Assembly: GCA_025351325.1 (NCBI GenBank)
Contig: JANXWE010000070.1
Coordinates: 1-39,383 of the forward strand
Length of the DNA: 39,383 nt
From: Fimbriiglobus sp.
GTDB lineage: Bacteria > Planctomycetota > Planctomycetia > Gemmatales > Gemmataceae
Direction of reading: 5' to 3'
Part shown: positions 1,509 through 15,797 of the stretch, piece by piece
Layout of the letters: the number at the start of each line of letters is the position of its first letter
How positions within the stretch are numbered: position 1 is the first letter of the stretch
The notes under the pieces: generated by a model
What the model was told of the DNA's origin: nothing
Databases searched by the model: none
What the model saw: the letters and a program-made list of their open reading frames with translations, nothing else
Translations under genes and position numbers: made by a program

Positions 1509-4500
1509 ATGATCCTCTGTTTCCCCGATCTCGACACGTTCCGCCTGGCGGCCGCGGGTTCGTTACTTCCTGCGGACGTGGTACTGGCCCCCGCACGGGT
1601 TCGGTTCGAGGACGATGGTCGAATCCATTTGCAAACCGACGCCAAGATCACCAAGAAACTCGCCGGGGAACTCGCCCGATTGGCCGTGACGGTCACCAAG
1701 GTACTTCCGGAACCATCCGAGGAACTGTCGTGTTGGCTGCAAGCCATCGAGGCCGAACCGGACAGCGCCCCGCTCCTTTCGACTCACGCCCCGGTGATTT
1801 TTGAAGTCCCCGATCCGAAACAATTACCCCAGTTGGTCGGGGAGATGCTCCGCCTCGGGAACGATCGCCAAAGTTATTGCTGGCTCGAGACCGGCAGAGC
1901 CAAGCACATGCTCCTCCGCGTGATCGGCCCACCCTATTACACGTTGTTGCAATCGCTCGATCCCCAATTCTCCGGCTCGTCGGAGACCCTCACGGCGTTC
2001 GTCGAACAGGGGCCGCGCGTCTGGGTGCAAATCGGCTACCAACACCCCGTGGCCCGGCGCATCAAGCTGCCCGACGAGCAGATGGTGTTGATCCGCCCGG
2101 GGCGGCAATGGACGTACCTCGATGACCCGCCGTTTCGAGATATCTACGACGTGTTGCAGTTCCCGCTGCCGGGTGTTCCGATCACGTGGCAGTCGGTGCC
2201 GACGCCGGAAAAACTGACGGTGCCGTTGAAATTGGCGTCGGGCAATGCCGCCGAGGTTCCGGAATTCTGGGTGCTGCGGAGTCAAGCCGCCAAGCATCTG
2301 GATACATTCGTCCGCGACGCCGACGACCGGCTCTTGCAGCGGTTGCGCTTCGCCGTGTCGGAAGCGAGCGACAATGCCGAGAGCGTCATTGTGTTGCGGC
2401 TCAGCCCGTCGAAGTTGCCTGCCCCGGTACTCGAGCTTCCCGGTGCCGTCGGCTACAAACCCTACTTCAAACTGACGAATTTATTCGTCCCCACCGGGCT
2501 GCGGTTGCACCCGCAGTTGCGTCGCGACGCCGTCCGTACCTTGCTGGCGAGTGATCCGGATCGGGTGGTTTGGTTGTCGCCGTTACCGAATGGGGAGTTC
2601 CTTCCCGAGTCCATTGCGGAAGAGGCGTTTCGTCCACTCGACCATTGGGTGGACTACATTTTGGAGTCGTCTCCGGCACCGCTCAAAGCGTGGGTGGCTG
2701 CCACGCAATTCGATTTTGAATCGTTCGTTTGTGCCGATCAAGCTTCGAAGCCACGCGGCCCCGATCGTGGGCCGAAGGATCGCGGACGAGGGAAAGAGAC
2801 CGATAGTCTGATCCCGCTCCAACCCGAAACACCGCCGGTTGCAGTCGATCCGAACGCGACTGCGGGCTTCACCACGACGACTCCGAAACCGGTCGACGAC
2901 GCCCTGAAAGTCGACGCCTGGAAACTCCGCCGTGCGGCGCTCCAAGACGAGTTTCAAAAACTCGAAGGCGGCCTCGATCAACCGGAACGCCAGTCTCTCT
3001 GGCCGGCATTGGCCCGTGCCAACACCGGCGCCGGCGATCCCGCGGAGGCATCCATTTGCTGGGTCAATGCAATGTGGGAGCAAGTGGCGCTTCCGGCCGA
3101 ATTCGTCCAGGGCTGGTATCAAACGGAACACCCGAATCAGTCCAAACCGAACGGCGCGACTGAACTCGACACGCTGTTGCAGAGCCGGAATCCGGATCGG
3201 ATCGAAGTGCGGCAACTGGCCAGCACGGTTTTGGCCAGTTTGTCGACCGACCCGGCGCCGGCGTGGCTGCGGTCGCGGCTTCCGGCGATCCAGCAATACC
3301 TCGAAGCCAACGACGGTAAACTCCCGGTGCGCGCCGTCTGGCTGATCGCGCTGGAGCTGGCCACCGTGACCGGTGCCGACGTGCTCGGTCTGGCGCGCGT
3401 GCGGGATCGCATACTGCAAAGGTTGCTCGACGGTGGCCTCAACGCCGAGACCGACTTGCCCTTCTTCCTGCGGACGGCCGGGCTGAAGGATTCCGAGCGG
3501 GTCCGGTTCGTGCGCGACCAAGCGATGAGTTTACACCAGTTGTGCCGCAAGTGGGCCGAGGCGACCAATTTCGCGTCGTACGCGTACGGTTTCAAACAGA
3601 GCGATGCAAAATCGACACTTCCCTATGTCGATTTGCTGTTCGCCTATGGGTTTGCCAAACTCGGCGAAGCGACGACCGCTCGGACGCTGATGGATAAGAC
3701 GCGCCGCTCGCTGGATCCGAATCCGAAATCGGACGAGCGACTCATGACCAAAAAATATCTTTACGAAGCCTTCCTCTATCGCGCCGAAGAAGTTCTTGCC
3801 GGCAAAGTCCCTTCGCGGGCGCTGCCGGTCGAGTTGGCCAAGGACATCGAACTGCTGGCGATCGCCGGGAGAAACGTCGACAACAGTCCCCATAAAAACG
3901 CTTACAAAGCGATCATGAGGCTGCGTGCCCAATCCGTTATTCTCGAGCCGATCGAAAAGTACGATCACCTCGACAAGGCCGCGCAGGGCGGCAATCCCTT
4001 TCTCGATGCGCTCCGCGATTTGAGCGACATCCGCGATCCGTCGAACATGATCCGCCAAGTCCGCATGCTATACCGGGGTGGCATTGGGGGCAACGAACCG
4101 CAACCATTGCTCGTCGTCCAGATGATGACGTTGCACGCCGCCATGCCTTGGGCCGTCCGCGCCGGCGAGGGCTTCACGCTCGAATTACTCAGTTTGGTGC
4201 CCGAGGTGCTTCGGCAAAGTCTCGCCCTCGGAGCGGTGAAAAATCTGACGAAAATCCAGGGCGAACTACTCGACCGCGCTCTCTTTTTCGCGGCCCATTT
4301 CGGGCGCCGCGATCACATCCAAACGCTCCAAGGTCTGTTCATCGACCTCGTGGCGAGCAAACAGAAAGAAGACCGTATCGATATGATCAACCTCGCGGCC
4401 CGCCAGTGCATGAAGTGCTTGGTTCAAGCCGGGTTGCGCGACGAGATCGATACGATATTGCTGCGGCTCTACAACTTGATCTTGCAAGGCGAGAGTTTGC

Positions 4501-11109: not shown

Positions 11110-11543
11110 TGGACGTTCCCGGCCTCACCACGCCGACCGAGTTTCGCCACTGGCGATTCTGGCGACGCTGGTTCGGCCAACGTTCCGAGAAAGCCGCCGC
11201 GAAGTTCCTCCGGAAGCTCGGCTGGCACATTCTCGGCACGAACATCCACGACGGTTTGGGCGAGTTGGATCTGATCGCCCATGATGGCGAGGCGCTGGTG
11301 ATCGTCGAAGTTCGTTCGACATCCCAACCCGACCCGCAAGTTGCAGCCGCTTCGGTCGATCTTCGCAAGCAGCGGAAGTTGACCCAAGCGGCTCTTCGTT
11401 TTCTCGGCCGGCACCGGCTCCATGGTGTCGCCCTCCGATTCGATGTGCTCGCCCTGGCTTGGCCACCGACGGCCCGCGAACCGACCATTCTGCACCTCCG
11501 TCAGGCGTTTGAACCCAACGACCGCTTTCAGATGTTCTCGTAA
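11109..11543 (+). CDS. YraN/UPF0102 family endonuclease-fold protein
   Basis: This is a 144-residue protein with the UPF0102 pattern: a helix with GQRSEKAAAKFLRKLGWHIL, then GELDLIAHDGEALVIVEVRS. That matches the Asp and Glu-x-Lys-like core of the restriction-endonuclease fold, although the classical ExK Lys is replaced (VEVRS). Its biochemical function is not established. The GTG start at 11109 overlaps the rplS stop by one base, the same coupling as rpsP/trmD. In many bacteria yraN lies near rplS and rnhB; no rnhB is seen here. Confidence 0.9.
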   Translation: MDVPGLTTPTEFRHWRFWRRWFGQRSEKAAAKFLRKLGWHILGTNIHDGLGELDLIAHDGEALVIVEVRSTSQPDPQVAAASVDLRKQRKLTQAALRFLGRHRLHGVALRFDVLALAWPPTAREPTILHLRQAFEPNDRFQMFS

Positions 11544-11556
11544 CCGCAGGCACACC

Positions 11557-12774
11557 ATGCCCGAATTCGCCCCCGTCGAAGACCAACTCGCCACCCTCTT
11601 GCGGGGTGCGGCGCAAGTCGAAACCGTTCCAGAGTTGCGGCAAAAACTCGAACGGAGCCGGGCCACCCACACCCCCCTGCGGGTGAAGTACGGCATCGAT
11701 CCCACCGGGTTCGATGTTCACCTCGGTCACACCGTGCCGTTGCGGAAACTGCGTCAGTTCCAGGAACTCGGCCACACGGCGGTGCTCATCATCGGCACGG
11801 CGACGGCCCAAGTGGGCGACCCTTCCGGCCGCGATGCCTCCAGGGCGGGCCTGACCGAAGAGCAGATCGAGAAGAACGCCGAAAGCTACTTGGTGCAGAT
11901 CGCCAAAGTCGTGGACGTTTCGACCGCCGAGATCCGCCCGAACCGCGCTTGGTTCGGAAACTTCGGTTTCAATGAGATGTTGAAGCTCCTGGCCCAATCG
12001 ACGGTGCAACAAATCCTCGCAAGGGAAGACTTCGCCAACCGGGTCAAGTCGGGAACTGCGATTTACCTGCACGAGTGCCTCTACCCACTCATGCAGGGCT
12101 GGGACAGCGTCGAAATCCGTGCCGACGTCGAACTCGGGGGAACCGAACAACTCTTCAACTTGATGGTCGGCCGCGACCTCCAGCGGAACGCGGGCCAACC
12201 GCCGCAAGTGCCCATCACGCTGCCGATCTTGCGCGGCCTCGATGGCGAGAAAAAGATGGGCAAGAGCCTCGGCAACTACATCGGCGTCGGTGAGCCGGCG
12301 ATGGAGCAATTCGGCAAGACCATGCGCATCCCCGATGCCTTGATGCGCGAGTGGTTCACCCTGTTAACGGACTTGAGCGAAGGTGAAATCGCGGCGATCC
12401 TCGTCGGCAAACCCAACGAAGCCAAGAAGCGTTTGGGCGCCGAGATCGTGAAATGGTTCCACGGCCAAGCCGGTGCCGAAACGGTACTGGCCGACTGGAA
12501 GAAGCAATTCGAGGAGCAGGGCGACCCCGATTCCATTCCCGAAGTGGCCGTCGCCTCCACGGAGCTGGTGGATGGGCAACTCGGGGTGTTGAAGTTGATC
12601 GTGCTCGCGGGCTTGGCCAAGAGCAACAGCGAAGCCCGCAAGAAAGTCGAAGAAGGGGCCTTCAACTTCGGCCCCGACCGCAGCAAACCGGCCGACTTCA
12701 AAGCGACGATTCCCGTCGTCGATGGCTTGGTGATCCGCCTGGGTCGGAAGATTTTCCGCATCGTGTTGAAGTAG
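11557..12774 (+). CDS. tyrS: Tyrosyl-tRNA synthetase
   Basis: This class I synthetase charges tRNA-Tyr. The start is the ATG at 11557 (MPEFAPVEDQL), just after yraN; an upstream in-frame extension overlaps yraN and is not family-like. The protein has 405 residues. The HIGH motif is present as HLGH in VKYGIDPTGFDVHLGHTVPL, a DPSGRD segment follows, and the KMSKS loop is present as KMGKS in LDGEKKMGKSLGNYIGV. The C-terminal S4-like RNA-binding domain runs from VLKLIVLAGLAKSNSEARK to the end. The KMGKS and HLGH variants fit the TyrZ-like subgroup. Confidence 0.95.
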   Translation: MPEFAPVEDQLATLLRGAAQVETVPELRQKLERSRATHTPLRVKYGIDPTGFDVHLGHTVPLRKLRQFQELGHTAVLIIGTATAQVGDPSGRDASRAGLTEEQIEKNAESYLVQIAKVVDVSTAEIRPNRAWFGNFGFNEMLKLLAQSTVQQILAREDFANRVKSGTAIYLHECLYPLMQGWDSVEIRADVELGGTEQLFNLMVGRDLQRNAGQPPQVPITLPILRGLDGEKKMGKSLGNYIGVGEPAMEQFGKTMRIPDALMREWFTLLTDLSEGEIAAILVGKPNEAKKRLGAEIVKWFHGQAGAETVLADWKKQFEEQGDPDSIPEVAVASTELVDGQLGVLKLIVLAGLAKSNSEARKKVEEGAFNFGPDRSKPADFKATIPVVDGLVIRLGRKIFRIVLK

Positions 12775-12842
12775 GAGTGCAGAAACATTTTTGATTTCCC
12801 CTTGAACCTTTGCGCCGGAATCGGCATCACTGACTCTGCACA

Positions 12843-12993
12843 GGCGTGCAAAACTGAGGTTTCGATTTCGGCTGAATCGTAGATCGACCGACAGTGCGGG
12901 TTCGACTCCCGCCCCCTCCATTCTCCACCGCGGAGGGGTAGCCCAACGGCAGAGGCAGGCGAACTACCCGTTAAACTCAGACTGTTTCACGCC
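12843..12993 (+). tRNA. Candidate circularly permuted tRNA-like gene A (3' half before 5' half)
   Basis: Upstream part: a perfect T-arm at 12896-12912 (GCGGG, loop TTCGACT, CCCGC), then a 3' acceptor strand CCCCTCC at 12913-12919 and A at 12920. After an 11-base linker comes the 5' acceptor strand GGAGGGG at 12932-12938, pairing 7/7 with it. TA and a D-arm with loop GG (GCC at 12941-12943, GGC at 12954-12956) follow. No matching 5' half lies upstream of the T-arm, and no matching 3' half follows the D-arm. Bases before the T-arm pair with bases after the D-arm in nested blocks: 12843-12848/12988-12993, 12854-12858/12976-12980, 12860-12862/12973-12975, 12879-12882/12964-12967, 12884-12886/12960-12962 and 12888-12889/12958-12959. 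So the anticodon arm becomes a long helix with open ends. No normal anticodon loop can be assigned. It could be a permuted tRNA, a two-piece tRNA-like RNA or a remnant. Confidence 0.6.
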
Positions 12994-13014
12994 AAAATTC
13001 AACCCGTGTCGGAG

Positions 13015-13160
13015 GTGCTTCACTCGACGTTCGACCACCAACCAACGATTGCGGGTTCGAATCCCGTCCCCCAGGCTCCAGCCGAACTATCTCTGGGGGT
13101 CGCCTAACGGTTAGGCAGCTGGTTTCAGACTCAGGGTCGACGACCGGATACTGTGGGCAC
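13015..13160 (+). tRNA. Candidate circularly permuted tRNA-like gene B (3' half before 5' half)
   Basis: Same plan as gene A, just downstream. The T-arm at 13051-13067 (GCGGG, loop TTCGAAT, CCCGT) is followed by CCCCCAG at 13068-13074 and G. After a 17-base linker comes CTGGGGG at 13093-13099, pairing 7/7. TC and a four-pair D-arm GCCT/AGGC (13102-13105, 13113-13116) with loop GG follow. Flanks again pair in nested order: 13040-13046 with 13118-13124 (six of seven, forming the anticodon stem), 13031-13036 with 13135-13140 (six of six), 13021-13023 with 13153-13155 and 13015-13018 with 13157-13160. If the 5' piece supplied the whole loop TTTCAGA the anticodon would read TCA, but the join point cannot be seen, so I assign none. 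Confidence 0.6.
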
Positions 13161-13207
13161 ACGTGCCTTGAGGATCGACACAACACTTTACCAAAAAGGT
13201 GTACCGG

Positions 13208-13241
13208 CCCCGTCGAGAGTGCTATCTCGGCGGGGTTCTTT
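13208..13241 (+). terminator. Strong intrinsic terminator closing the tRNA-like segment
   Basis: CCCCGTCGAGA at 13208-13218 pairs with TCTCGGCGGGG at 13225-13235 (eleven pairs, one G-U) around a six-base loop, followed by TTCTTT. It faces the + strand and lies 48 bases after the trailer of tRNA-like gene B. It implies that a stable + strand RNA is made through 12843-13207. The TolC-like gene on the other strand ends 81 bases further on. Confidence 0.8.
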
Positions 13242-13321
13242 ATGCGCTCCAGAACTAACCCAAAACATCACGAGCCGGAGCCACTCGGCTCCGGCTCATA
13301 TTCAGTTCGATCCCATCCCGA

Positions 13322-15601
13322 CTACCGCGAAGGGATCTGCAAGATCGGCGTCGTCGGGCTGGAGAGAGCCGGCAACACCGGAATGAGCGGTGGCTCCGAC
13401 TGAGCCGTGCCCGGCAACGGCCGCTTCGGCAACGTCACACTCCCGTTCGGTTTGAACGTTCCGCTTCCTTCCGTGGCTGTTGGCACCGGAGTGAGCGTCG
13501 TCGGTGGCGTCTGCCAGTTGTCCCAAGACTTCGTGCTCGATGCCGTGGGTTGATCCCCGCCCGGCAACGCTCTCGGCGTCGACACCGGTGCTGGAAGCAA
13601 GCCGGGCAAGTTCGAACCGGGTGCGGTTGGCATCGGCTGCGAACCCATTGGCATTGCTGGCGATGGTTGGAACGGGTCGATCGCCGACGGTGGAGTGTTA
13701 CCGAGAATCTCGGACGGGTGCTCCCGCAGTTTGATGGCCGAGTCGAGCGCCCGGAAGTGATCCGCCGCCTTCTTCTGCACGAACGCGGGCAACGGGCCAT
13801 CCGCCACACTGATGTTGTTGTAAGTCTGGATCGTCCCCTTCACGTACTCCAACCGAGCCAAGCCCGTATTGTAGTTCGCCAAGCCGCGGTACTGCTCCGA
13901 GATCGTATTCGCCAAGTCGCGCTGGCTCTGGATCAACGTGTTCAGTTGATTGACGTAGTCATCTTGGGCGATGGCTCCCAATCGCGCTTCCTGCTGTTTG
14001 ATCACATCGACGAGGAACTTACGCCGCGCTTCGTTGAGAATGTTGGTCTGGTAACCGGCATCCATTGAGCGAATGGCTTCGACGAGGCCCTCGTGAACTT
14101 TCCGCTCCGAATCGGTGAGTTGGTAGTAACTCTTCCAAAGCGACGCCTGCGATTGTCGGACGAGGGCATTCGCGTCGCGGAACCCGATCGGAATGTCGAC
14201 CCGGATGCCGGCCTGCCAACTGTTGAACTGATTCAGGCGCAGGTTGGAGAGGGCGTTGTCCGGTGCCCCGCCGGTCAATCCCCGCCCCAGGGCGTTGACG
14301 TCGTAGCTGCCGAAGAGCCGAACATCCGGCATTCGTAAGTTCTTCTGGTTCAGCAAGTCGAGCTGCCGGGCCTTGATCTCTTGACGCGCGATCAACACTT
14401 CCGGCCGGTTTTCCAAGGCCTCCTTTTTCACGGCATTGATGTCGGGCGAATAGCGGCCTTTCGCCGGCGCGTCGGCCGGGACGAAGAGGGTGCCATCGGA
14501 GCGCATCCCCAACAAACCGCGCAACACCCGATCCGCTTCGAGGATTTGCTGCTTGGCTGCCAGCTCTTGCAATTTGAAGAGATAGTACTGACCGCCGGCT
14601 TGGTCTTTCAGATACGGTGCCCCAACTCCTTTGTCGGTTCGATCTTTGAGCTTGGTGTACAGCCCGAAGGCTTGTTCCAGCCCGACTTCCTGAGCGTACT
14701 TGCTGTAGTAGGCCGCGTAGAGGTTCCAGTACGCGGTCTCGACATTCAGGAGCATCTGGTTGATCTGGAGATCGAACTGAAGCCGGGCTTGGGCCGTGCG
14801 AACCCGGGTCACCAAGATCCCTTCCGAACCTTGGCCACCGGAGGGCCGCAAACCGGGGATCAACAAACTTCCCGGATGGGCCCCGAGCAGTTGGTTGGCC
14901 TCGATCCCGAATCCTTGCATGAGCGGCTGTTCAAAAATGAACTGCACCCGCGGCGTGTACGATGTCGTCAGGGCGATGAACTGGCTGTTCGTCGGGGCAC
15001 TCGCCAAGTTCAAATAGTTCATGCTCGTGGTGATCCCCGCCATCCCCCCCGTGGGCAGCGGCTTGGCCAACGTGCTCGTCAAGCTGGCCGAGTCCCCGTT
15101 CGAGAAACTCTGCTGCAGGCTCAGCGTCGCTTGGTCTTGCTTCGACCACGTCATGCTCGTCGACCAACGGGCGTCGAACTTCGACAGCGACCGTTCGACT
15201 TCCGCTTGGGCAATCGCCGGATCGAGCAAGAACGCTTTGATCGTGTCGGTACCGGAGGTGCCACGACCGGTGAACCCAGGGAGTGCGGGGTTATCCGTGC
15301 CGTTAATGCCACTGCCGGTGTTCCCTTGCTCGATGGCGATGGCGAACGCTTCTTTGAGGGTGAGCAACCGCGTCGGCCGCGCGGAATCCGACACCGTAGC
15401 CGGCTTGGCATCCATCGGCTCGTTCGGCGGAACGATCGTCCCGTACGGATCGCTTTCCAACGTCGGTGGAATGTTCGGCCGCGTGGCTTCTTTCCAGTCC
15501 GCCGGTTCGAGGAAGAGTTGATGCTTGCAGCCCGCCAGCCCCAGGCCGGTGAGTGCGATCAGTCCGCCCGCGAAACGTGCTTTCCAGCGAATCTTCCGCA
15601 T
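13322..15601 (-). CDS. TolC-like outer-membrane efflux lipoprotein
   Basis: The start is the ATG at 15601, preceded by GGGCGGGA; an ATG 11 codons upstream is possible. The N-terminus is a lipoprotein signal with lipobox LAGC (MRKIRWKARFAGGLIALTGLGLAGCKH). The body has the TolC/OEP pattern of long helices and outer-membrane strands, for example NQMLLNVETAYWNLYAAYYSKYAQEVGL and QAGIRVDIPIGFRDANALVRQSQASLWKSYYQL. At 759 residues it is longer than TolC because of a Pro/Ser/Thr-rich tail of about 170 residues. Family role: the outer-membrane exit duct for tripartite efflux pumps. It could serve the DevBCA-like exporter at 17670-20778, but is not in its operon. Confidence 0.88.
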   Translation of the reverse strand: MRKIRWKARFAGGLIALTGLGLAGCKHQLFLEPADWKEATRPNIPPTLESDPYGTIVPPNEPMDAKPATVSDSARPTRLLTLKEAFAIAIEQGNTGSGINGTDNPALPGFTGRGTSGTDTIKAFLLDPAIAQAEVERSLSKFDARWSTSMTWSKQDQATLSLQQSFSNGDSASLTSTLAKPLPTGGMAGITTSMNYLNLASAPTNSQFIALTTSYTPRVQFIFEQPLMQGFGIEANQLLGAHPGSLLIPGLRPSGGQGSEGILVTRVRTAQARLQFDLQINQMLLNVETAYWNLYAAYYSKYAQEVGLEQAFGLYTKLKDRTDKGVGAPYLKDQAGGQYYLFKLQELAAKQQILEADRVLRGLLGMRSDGTLFVPADAPAKGRYSPDINAVKKEALENRPEVLIARQEIKARQLDLLNQKNLRMPDVRLFGSYDVNALGRGLTGGAPDNALSNLRLNQFNSWQAGIRVDIPIGFRDANALVRQSQASLWKSYYQLTDSERKVHEGLVEAIRSMDAGYQTNILNEARRKFLVDVIKQQEARLGAIAQDDYVNQLNTLIQSQRDLANTISEQYRGLANYNTGLARLEYVKGTIQTYNNISVADGPLPAFVQKKAADHFRALDSAIKLREHPSEILGNTPPSAIDPFQPSPAMPMGSQPMPTAPGSNLPGLLPAPVSTPRALPGGDQPTASSTKSWDNWQTPPTTLTPVPTATEGSGTFKPNGSVTLPKRPLPGTAQSEPPLIPVLPALSSPTTPILQIPSR

Positions 15602-15797
15602 AGTCCCGCCCCCATCCCACTGCAGTCTGGTCATTCCCCCGACGACCCGATCCGCAGAACGTCTCTTCGGTTATCGGCCAACCACGAAACGGAATGTACC
15701 AAACTTGCCGAATATTCTGGTTGCACCGCCGACAGGAGGGCTAATATCAGGAATCTGGGAAGTTTGGCTTAAGTGGGGGGACATTTCAGTTAAAAAA

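Follow-up and report, generated by a model that had tools for sequence, protein, structure and literature searches.

Among known RNAs, the element described here comes closest to YrlA, a bacterial Y RNA that is linked to Ro60 (Rfam RF02553; Chen et al. 2014, cited through PMC7790460 and PMC8394870). YrlA is 90-150 nt long and has a permuted transfer RNA (tRNA)-like head on a long stem; the stem binds Ro60 and the head binds polynucleotide phosphorylase (PMC8394870). The tRNA halves are permuted alike in the circularly permuted tRNA genes of algae and archaea (PMC3978253, PMC3218864), and in permuted two-piece transfer-messenger RNA (tmRNA; RF04321, RF01851) the 3' half also comes first, the loop joining the acceptor strands being cut by processing enzymes. 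The element in question lies in a 39,383-nt stretch of Fimbriiglobus sp. DNA (GenBank assembly GCA_025351325.1, contig JANXWE010000070.1, positions 1 to 39,383, forward strand), referred to as the window, which is contig C363 of a 5.1-Mb assembly that is 96% complete (G000). An earlier note, made from the letters of the window, had placed a permuted tRNA-like element at 12843-12993. The element proved to be real, but it covers just the first half of a single noncoding RNA (ncRNA) of about 400 nt (~12838-13243) that holds two permuted tRNA-like modules, A and B.

The reading we favor, with a probability of about 0.7, is that the feature is module A of this ncRNA and that the RNA and a protein of the family DUF7873 are likely to form a ribonucleoprotein, the tRNA-like heads of which would recruit tRNA enzymes or act as decoys for them. 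Judged by its sequence, the RNA belongs to a new class that is apparently undescribed.

Architecture and tRNA-like fold of the RNA

Module A (12896-12956) consists, in permuted order, of a T-arm, the 3' acceptor strand, a loop, the 5' acceptor strand and a D-arm. This order of the halves and the match of the acceptor strands at 7/7 positions (GGAGGGG with CCCCTCC) were as the earlier note had described them. The loop between the acceptor strands was also found, but it comprises 12 nt including the position-73 A, rather than 11; pyrimidines follow at positions 74 and 75, and CCA is not encoded. Base 48 (12895) is T and pairs with A15 as in tRNA. The anticodon loop had been described as replaced by a long open-ended helix, and this was supported: no anticodon stem-loop (5-bp stem, 7-nt loop) was found in either module, and the long helices that take its place are conserved in relatives. 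The nested blocks of the enclosing helix were recovered in part, an outer closing helix (Table 1) and a further helix of CTGAG (12854-12858) with CTCAG (12976-12980), but the claimed total of 23 pairs was not reproduced, the constrained fold of domain A giving ~13 enclosing pairs. Module B (13051-13116) starts 94 nt after module A, and its acceptor stem likewise has 7/7 pairs, with CCCCCAG. A strict scanner, which requires a T-arm, a 7-bp permuted acceptor stem and a D-arm, found modules A and B in the window and nothing else. Plain minimum free energy folding of the window gave z-scores of -0.74 and +0.43, which are not significant, so that the case stands on comparative evidence.

Three relatives found by homology (G003, G036 and G014, Gemmataceae-type Planctomycetota) have both modules in unchanged order. 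The stretch spanning A and B is 74% identical over 264 nt in G003 and 72% over 270 nt in G036, and module A is 85% identical to that of G014. The acceptor strands are GGAGGGG, GGCGGGG and AGGGGGG, each with its complement. Decay of either half in relatives, without compensatory changes, had been named as a finding that would refute the element; no decay was seen, both halves being kept with compensatory changes such as these. Members of the class have two modules spaced 84-151 nt apart, the first Leu-like, and this is what the window RNA shows.

The Levitt pair 15-48 was A-U in 91 and G-C in 20 of 112 non-redundant modules, with no mixed combination (nominal p 2e-22); A-C or G-U never occurred at 15-48, and the adjacent column had no such pattern. 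U8 was present in 111/112 modules and A14 in 109/112. Bases 8, 14, 15 and 48 played no part in scanner selection, and the perfect covariation at 15-48 indicates a tRNA elbow as the fold of the two reversed halves. The enclosing helices of domain B, also unused in selection, were ~82% paired, with double changes at 13/13 pairs, while the core helices were 100% paired, in part by construction. By comparative analysis, the fold of each domain was shown to be like that of a tRNA's upper half.

The same comparisons showed that module A imitates tRNA-Leu. Against a reference of 353 ordinary tRNAs from the collected loci, 14% of them Leu, the nearest isotype of module A was Leu in 35/36 sequences, that of the window included, and position 73 was A in 29/35. 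Module B gave a mixture of isotypes (Thr, Gln, Arg), with U73 in 25/35.

The acceptor-end loops bear signatures like those recognized by ribonuclease P (RNase P). Bacterial RNase P pairs with the RCC of the tRNA 3' end and favors U at position -1; over the 112 modules, a pyrimidine was found at position 74 in 107 and at 75 in 102, CCA in 35, and U-1 before G1 in 65. The CCA of the loop was uncorrelated with CCA in neighboring tRNA genes, and it was present in 14/27 modules where those tRNAs lack it. In module A, the bond 12931/12932 is a candidate RNase P site.

The permuted order, the 7/7 acceptor pairs, the tRNA-like tertiary bases and the Leu-like module A are also what would be expected of two permuted tRNA genes, the transcripts of which are cleaved and circularly joined into working tRNAs. 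An ordinary tRNA gene in permuted form was the interpretation put forward in the earlier note, and it did not hold. An anticodon stem-loop cannot form, and conserved helices occupy its position; the genome has 51 ordinary tRNAs, which cover every amino acid and comprise the five Leu anticodons, so that a decoding role is unneeded; and, unlike the algal and archaeal genes, the element occurs in bacteria and phages, with two modules per RNA and a protein partner. To our knowledge, bacteria lack the archaeal/eukaryotic splicing endonuclease. This explanation is considered highly improbable. A natural permuted intron-exon tRNA of the group I type was dropped, there being no group I match in Rfam.

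A variant of permuted tmRNA would share the order of the halves and the RNase P-like loop signatures, and permissive Rfam searches gave weak scores in the window (cyano_tmRNA 24.3 bits, and tmRNA_permuted 20.9 bits against a gathering score of 47). Both scores lie below threshold, however, the genome encodes an ordinary one-piece tmRNA (C303:1066-1478, 124.4 bits), the D-arm is complete, a G-U pair at 3-70 occurs in 3/70 modules, no tag was found, and there are two heads. The tmRNA reading is largely refuted and has very little likelihood left, as had been argued from the D-arm and the missing G3-U70 pair of module A.

Association with DUF7873

The gene for a DUF7873 protein lies directly upstream of the RNA in G003, G036, G014 and the Gordonia phage GodonK; the four proteins have ~245 residues and Pfam E-values of 4e-102 to 3e-94. 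The Fimbriiglobus genome also encodes DUF7873 (C211:15625-16353, E 1.7e-90). A scan of a genome collection gave 185 relatives, of which 80 loci were kept, and a scan of a viral collection gave 77; 73 phage records matched. The cellular relatives belong to Planctomycetota, Actinobacteria, Chloroflexota, Myxococcota, Armatimonadota, Acidobacteria and Deinococcales.

A strict module was found on the same strand within 900 nt downstream of the gene in 122/157 DUF7873 loci, with exactly two modules in 55. Over 1.29 Mb of related loci the scanner returned nothing from the opposite strand, and shuffled sequence likewise gave no module. A covariance model of domain B (R1), built from 27 sequences, recovered 22/34 strict-negative loci, none of them used to build it; in a few of these the RNA is upstream of the gene. 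In all, the RNA adjoins DUF7873 in 144/157 loci, in Planctomycetota, Actinobacteria, Chloroflexota, Myxococcota and phages. Each of the nine cellular genomes tested that lacked an adjacent RNA carries it elsewhere (9/9), among them four Herpetosiphon genomes at 102-104 bits (Herpetosiphon aurantiacus 102). Double modules that precede the gene rather than follow it were observed at ~3625-3925 of the phage contigs L258, L260, L262 and L266. The Klebsiella jumbo phage KpLz-2_45 (L300) has both modules at 2766-3043, after a divergent DUF7873 (33% identity), and the first has a classical tRNA-Leu D-arm.

Among 95 genomes of the same family, DUF7873 was found in 22, a full-length R1 match (E 1e-8 or better) in 22 and both in 21, that is, the RNA was present in 21/22 genomes with DUF7873 and 1/73 without it (Fisher, nominal p 8e-19). 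In the one RNA-only genome (G007) the match is ~1 kb from a TROVE gene and is likely a Ro60-linked Y RNA; the one gene-only genome (G026) has a weaker R1 match beside its DUF7873 gene. In about half of these same-family genomes the RNA and the gene are far apart and both are retained. These searches showed conservation of the RNA in phages and over many phyla, and genomes with a DUF7873 gene almost never lack it.

A model of the protein predicted by AlphaFold2, with a mean local confidence (pLDDT) of 93.7, has long helices and a long beta hairpin. No match to DUF7873 was found in NCBIfam or PADLOC and no significant sequence relative in the PDB. A second look at the fold gave as best match 3kdq, an uncharacterised Corynebacterium protein (Z 9.7, root mean square deviation 8.1, 148/152 residues), from which no function was interpreted. 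No mention of DUF7873 was found in the open literature, the coverage of which was partial, so that a prior description is possible.

Several observations weigh against the ribonucleoprotein reading, 1) in the Fimbriiglobus genome the RNA and the DUF7873 gene sit on different contigs, 2) the protein is mildly acidic (isoelectric point 5.7-6.8), 3) a search of PDB and BFVD with its model gave no fold match at E 0.001 or better, 4) R1 also detects Ro60-linked YrlA pairs, weakly, so that the two RNA classes are probably related, 5) selection by the scanner inflates the pair counts of the T-arm, acceptor and D-arm, 6) the rows compared share ancestry, which makes the p-values nominal and 7) CCA is encoded in only about one third of the modules and is absent from those of the window.

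The distribution of DUF7873 is patchy and accessory. The pair occurs in the isolated phages Mimi, D472, KpLz-2_45 and GodonK, and in phages it often lies among tRNA genes or in tRNA arrays. DUF7873 and the RNA could act as a decoy or inhibitor that, in conflict between phage and host, sequesters tRNA enzymes or nucleases that target tRNA, much as YrlA has been proposed to inhibit an anticodon nuclease by competition (PMC7790460). However, DUF7873 has no match in the defence library, a comparison of its neighborhoods revealed no other conserved neighbor gene, and most anticodon nucleases need the anticodon arm, which is absent here; a purely sequestering role is held to be unlikely.

Relation to YrlA and proposed mechanism

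The RNA resembles YrlA in its T-arm, loop-closed acceptor stem and D-arm, in its tRNA mimicry and in its sometimes tandem arrangement, and, as in Y RNAs, a long stem formed by the 5' and 3' ends encloses the permuted tRNA-like domain. It differs in having two domains within ~400 nt, the first Leu-like, in its RNase P-like loop signatures and in its partner, which is DUF7873 and not Ro60. Neither module was detected by Rfam at the gathering threshold or by ARAGORN. On its sequence, the RNA is Y RNA-like in its working and lies outside YrlA by two tested features, Rfam score and Ro60 linkage.

Two diverged YrlA Y RNAs in tandem, serving the Ro60/Rsr protein, would have the identical permuted tRNA-like architecture, and a permissive search with the Rfam YrlA model scored module B at 24.1 and module A at 21.7 bits. 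In G014, moreover, a tandem pair of YrlA-like RNAs lies beside a short TROVE protein (L106 4631-4885; 60.4 and 38.7 bits, below gathering), so that true Ro60-linked Y RNAs can also be paired, and on a viral contig (L234 1507-5112) less than 4 kb holds Ro60 with its tandem YrlA-type modules as well as DUF7873, which may connect the two classes. Against this explanation, the window scores are far below the gathering threshold of 69, which no Y RNA match reached in 15 further DUF7873 loci; a TROVE gene was found neither in G000 (96% complete) nor in G003; Ro60 homologues are near just 2/97 non-redundant DUF7873 loci; and in G014 and G036 Ro60 is encoded at a separate locus, which has a YrlA-like RNA of its own. 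A YrlA tandem appears improbable. An ordinary Y RNA with Ro60 had also been considered; it was weakened by the absence of TROVE, and DUF7873 replaced Ro60 as the candidate partner. Matches of the YrlA model on contigs C120 and C204 of G000 overlapped ordinary tRNA genes and were rejected.

The ribonucleoprotein that we favor would be analogous to, and distinct from, that of Ro60 and Y RNA. Protein binding would fall to the stems that enclose the domains or to conserved single-stranded motifs (CUCAG, AUCGA and CUUAAACG); tRNA enzymes, of which RNase P is the likeliest, would bind the tRNA-like heads. RNase P might cut the loops before G1, the RNA pieces being held together as in permuted tmRNA, and the heads could then recruit the enzymes that handle tRNA, act as decoys for them or regulate them. 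Leucyl-tRNA synthetase does not read the anticodon, and both cutting by RNase P and leucylation are extrapolated from these general properties of the two enzymes. A stronger proposal, that this is a categorically new, phage-spread ribonucleoprotein in which RNase P cuts the heads at G1, leucyl-tRNA synthetase charges the Leu-like head and the pieces stay base-paired, is tentative and on balance doubtful; if true, the leucylated head would couple the particle to translation or tRNA supply.

The RNA is a widespread addition to the very short list of tRNA-mimicking RNAs (tmRNA, YrlA), and it shows a tRNA-like Y RNA architecture in the absence of Ro60. The pairing indicates a likely target of a hitherto anonymous protein family, and concrete biochemical predictions follow from the mimicry of tRNA-Leu and from the RNase P-like loops. 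The spread over many phyla and isolated phages makes these testable in cultured hosts.

Coordinates, flanking signals and further loci

R1 scored the window at 70.4 bits (13009-13162), the window being among its 27 training sequences. In G003 and G036 the counterpart of the promoter-like element (Table 1) is TTGAAC-17-CATCAT, in the same position. A consensus scan called neither this element nor the terminator of the window RNA, and the function of the promoter-like element is suggested by its conservation. A hairpin and T-run likewise close the RNA in G003, G036 and L131; G003 has an extra terminator-like hairpin between the RNA and the gene upstream.

Table 1. Positions in the window of the RNA, its parts and its neighbors
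Feature	Position	Strand	Basis or remark
Whole ncRNA, two permuted tRNA-like domains, promoter to terminator	12838-13243	+	5' end inferred
Promoter-like TTGAAC-17 nt-CATCAC, just 5' of the RNA	12802-12830	+	read from sequence
Domain A outer closing helix, GGCGTG/CACGCC, 6 bp	12843-12848 with 12988-12993	+	both strands kept in G003, G036
Module A T-arm GCGGG-TTCGACT-CCCGC and 3' acceptor CCCCTCC	12896-12912, 12913-12919	+	read from sequence, scanner, fold
Module A acceptor-end loop attctccaccgc, 12 nt including position-73 A	12920-12931	+	statistics over 112 modules
Module A 5' acceptor GGAGGGG	12932-12938	+	followed by TA, then the D-arm
Module A D-arm GCCCAACGGCAGAGGC, tRNA-Leu-like with the 5' acceptor	12941-12956	+	isotype comparison
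Domain B outer closing helix GTGTCG/CGACAC	13006-13012 with 13176-13181	+	compensatory GTGCCG/CGGCAC in G003, G036
Module B T-arm and 3' acceptor	13051-13067, 13068-13074	+	read from sequence, scanner, fold
Module B 5' acceptor and D-arm	13093-13099, 13102-13116	+	scanner, fold
Intrinsic terminator, 12-bp hairpin then TTCTTTA, -24.1 kcal/mol	13207-13243	+	fold
tyrS (Pfam tRNA-synt_1b)	11422-12774		upstream neighbor of the RNA's intergenic region
Outer-membrane efflux protein, convergent	13322-15634		downstream neighbor of the RNA's intergenic region

Two further loci were observed. The Ruegeria phage RpAliso (L039 2864-3470) carries a phage permuted tmRNA (129.5 bits); two Y RNA-type permuted tRNA-like modules, a 718-residue protein without a Pfam match and an RlaP-type nucleotidyltransferase come after it, and Ro60 was not found in this record. 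A cluster of five tRNA genes (Glu, Asp, Leu, Ser, Arg), some with inverted-repeat spacers, lies in G000 at C143:16761-17590 (L088), and at ~829-893 of L088 there is an extra tRNA-like sequence, missed by ARAGORN, with CAT at the anticodon position.
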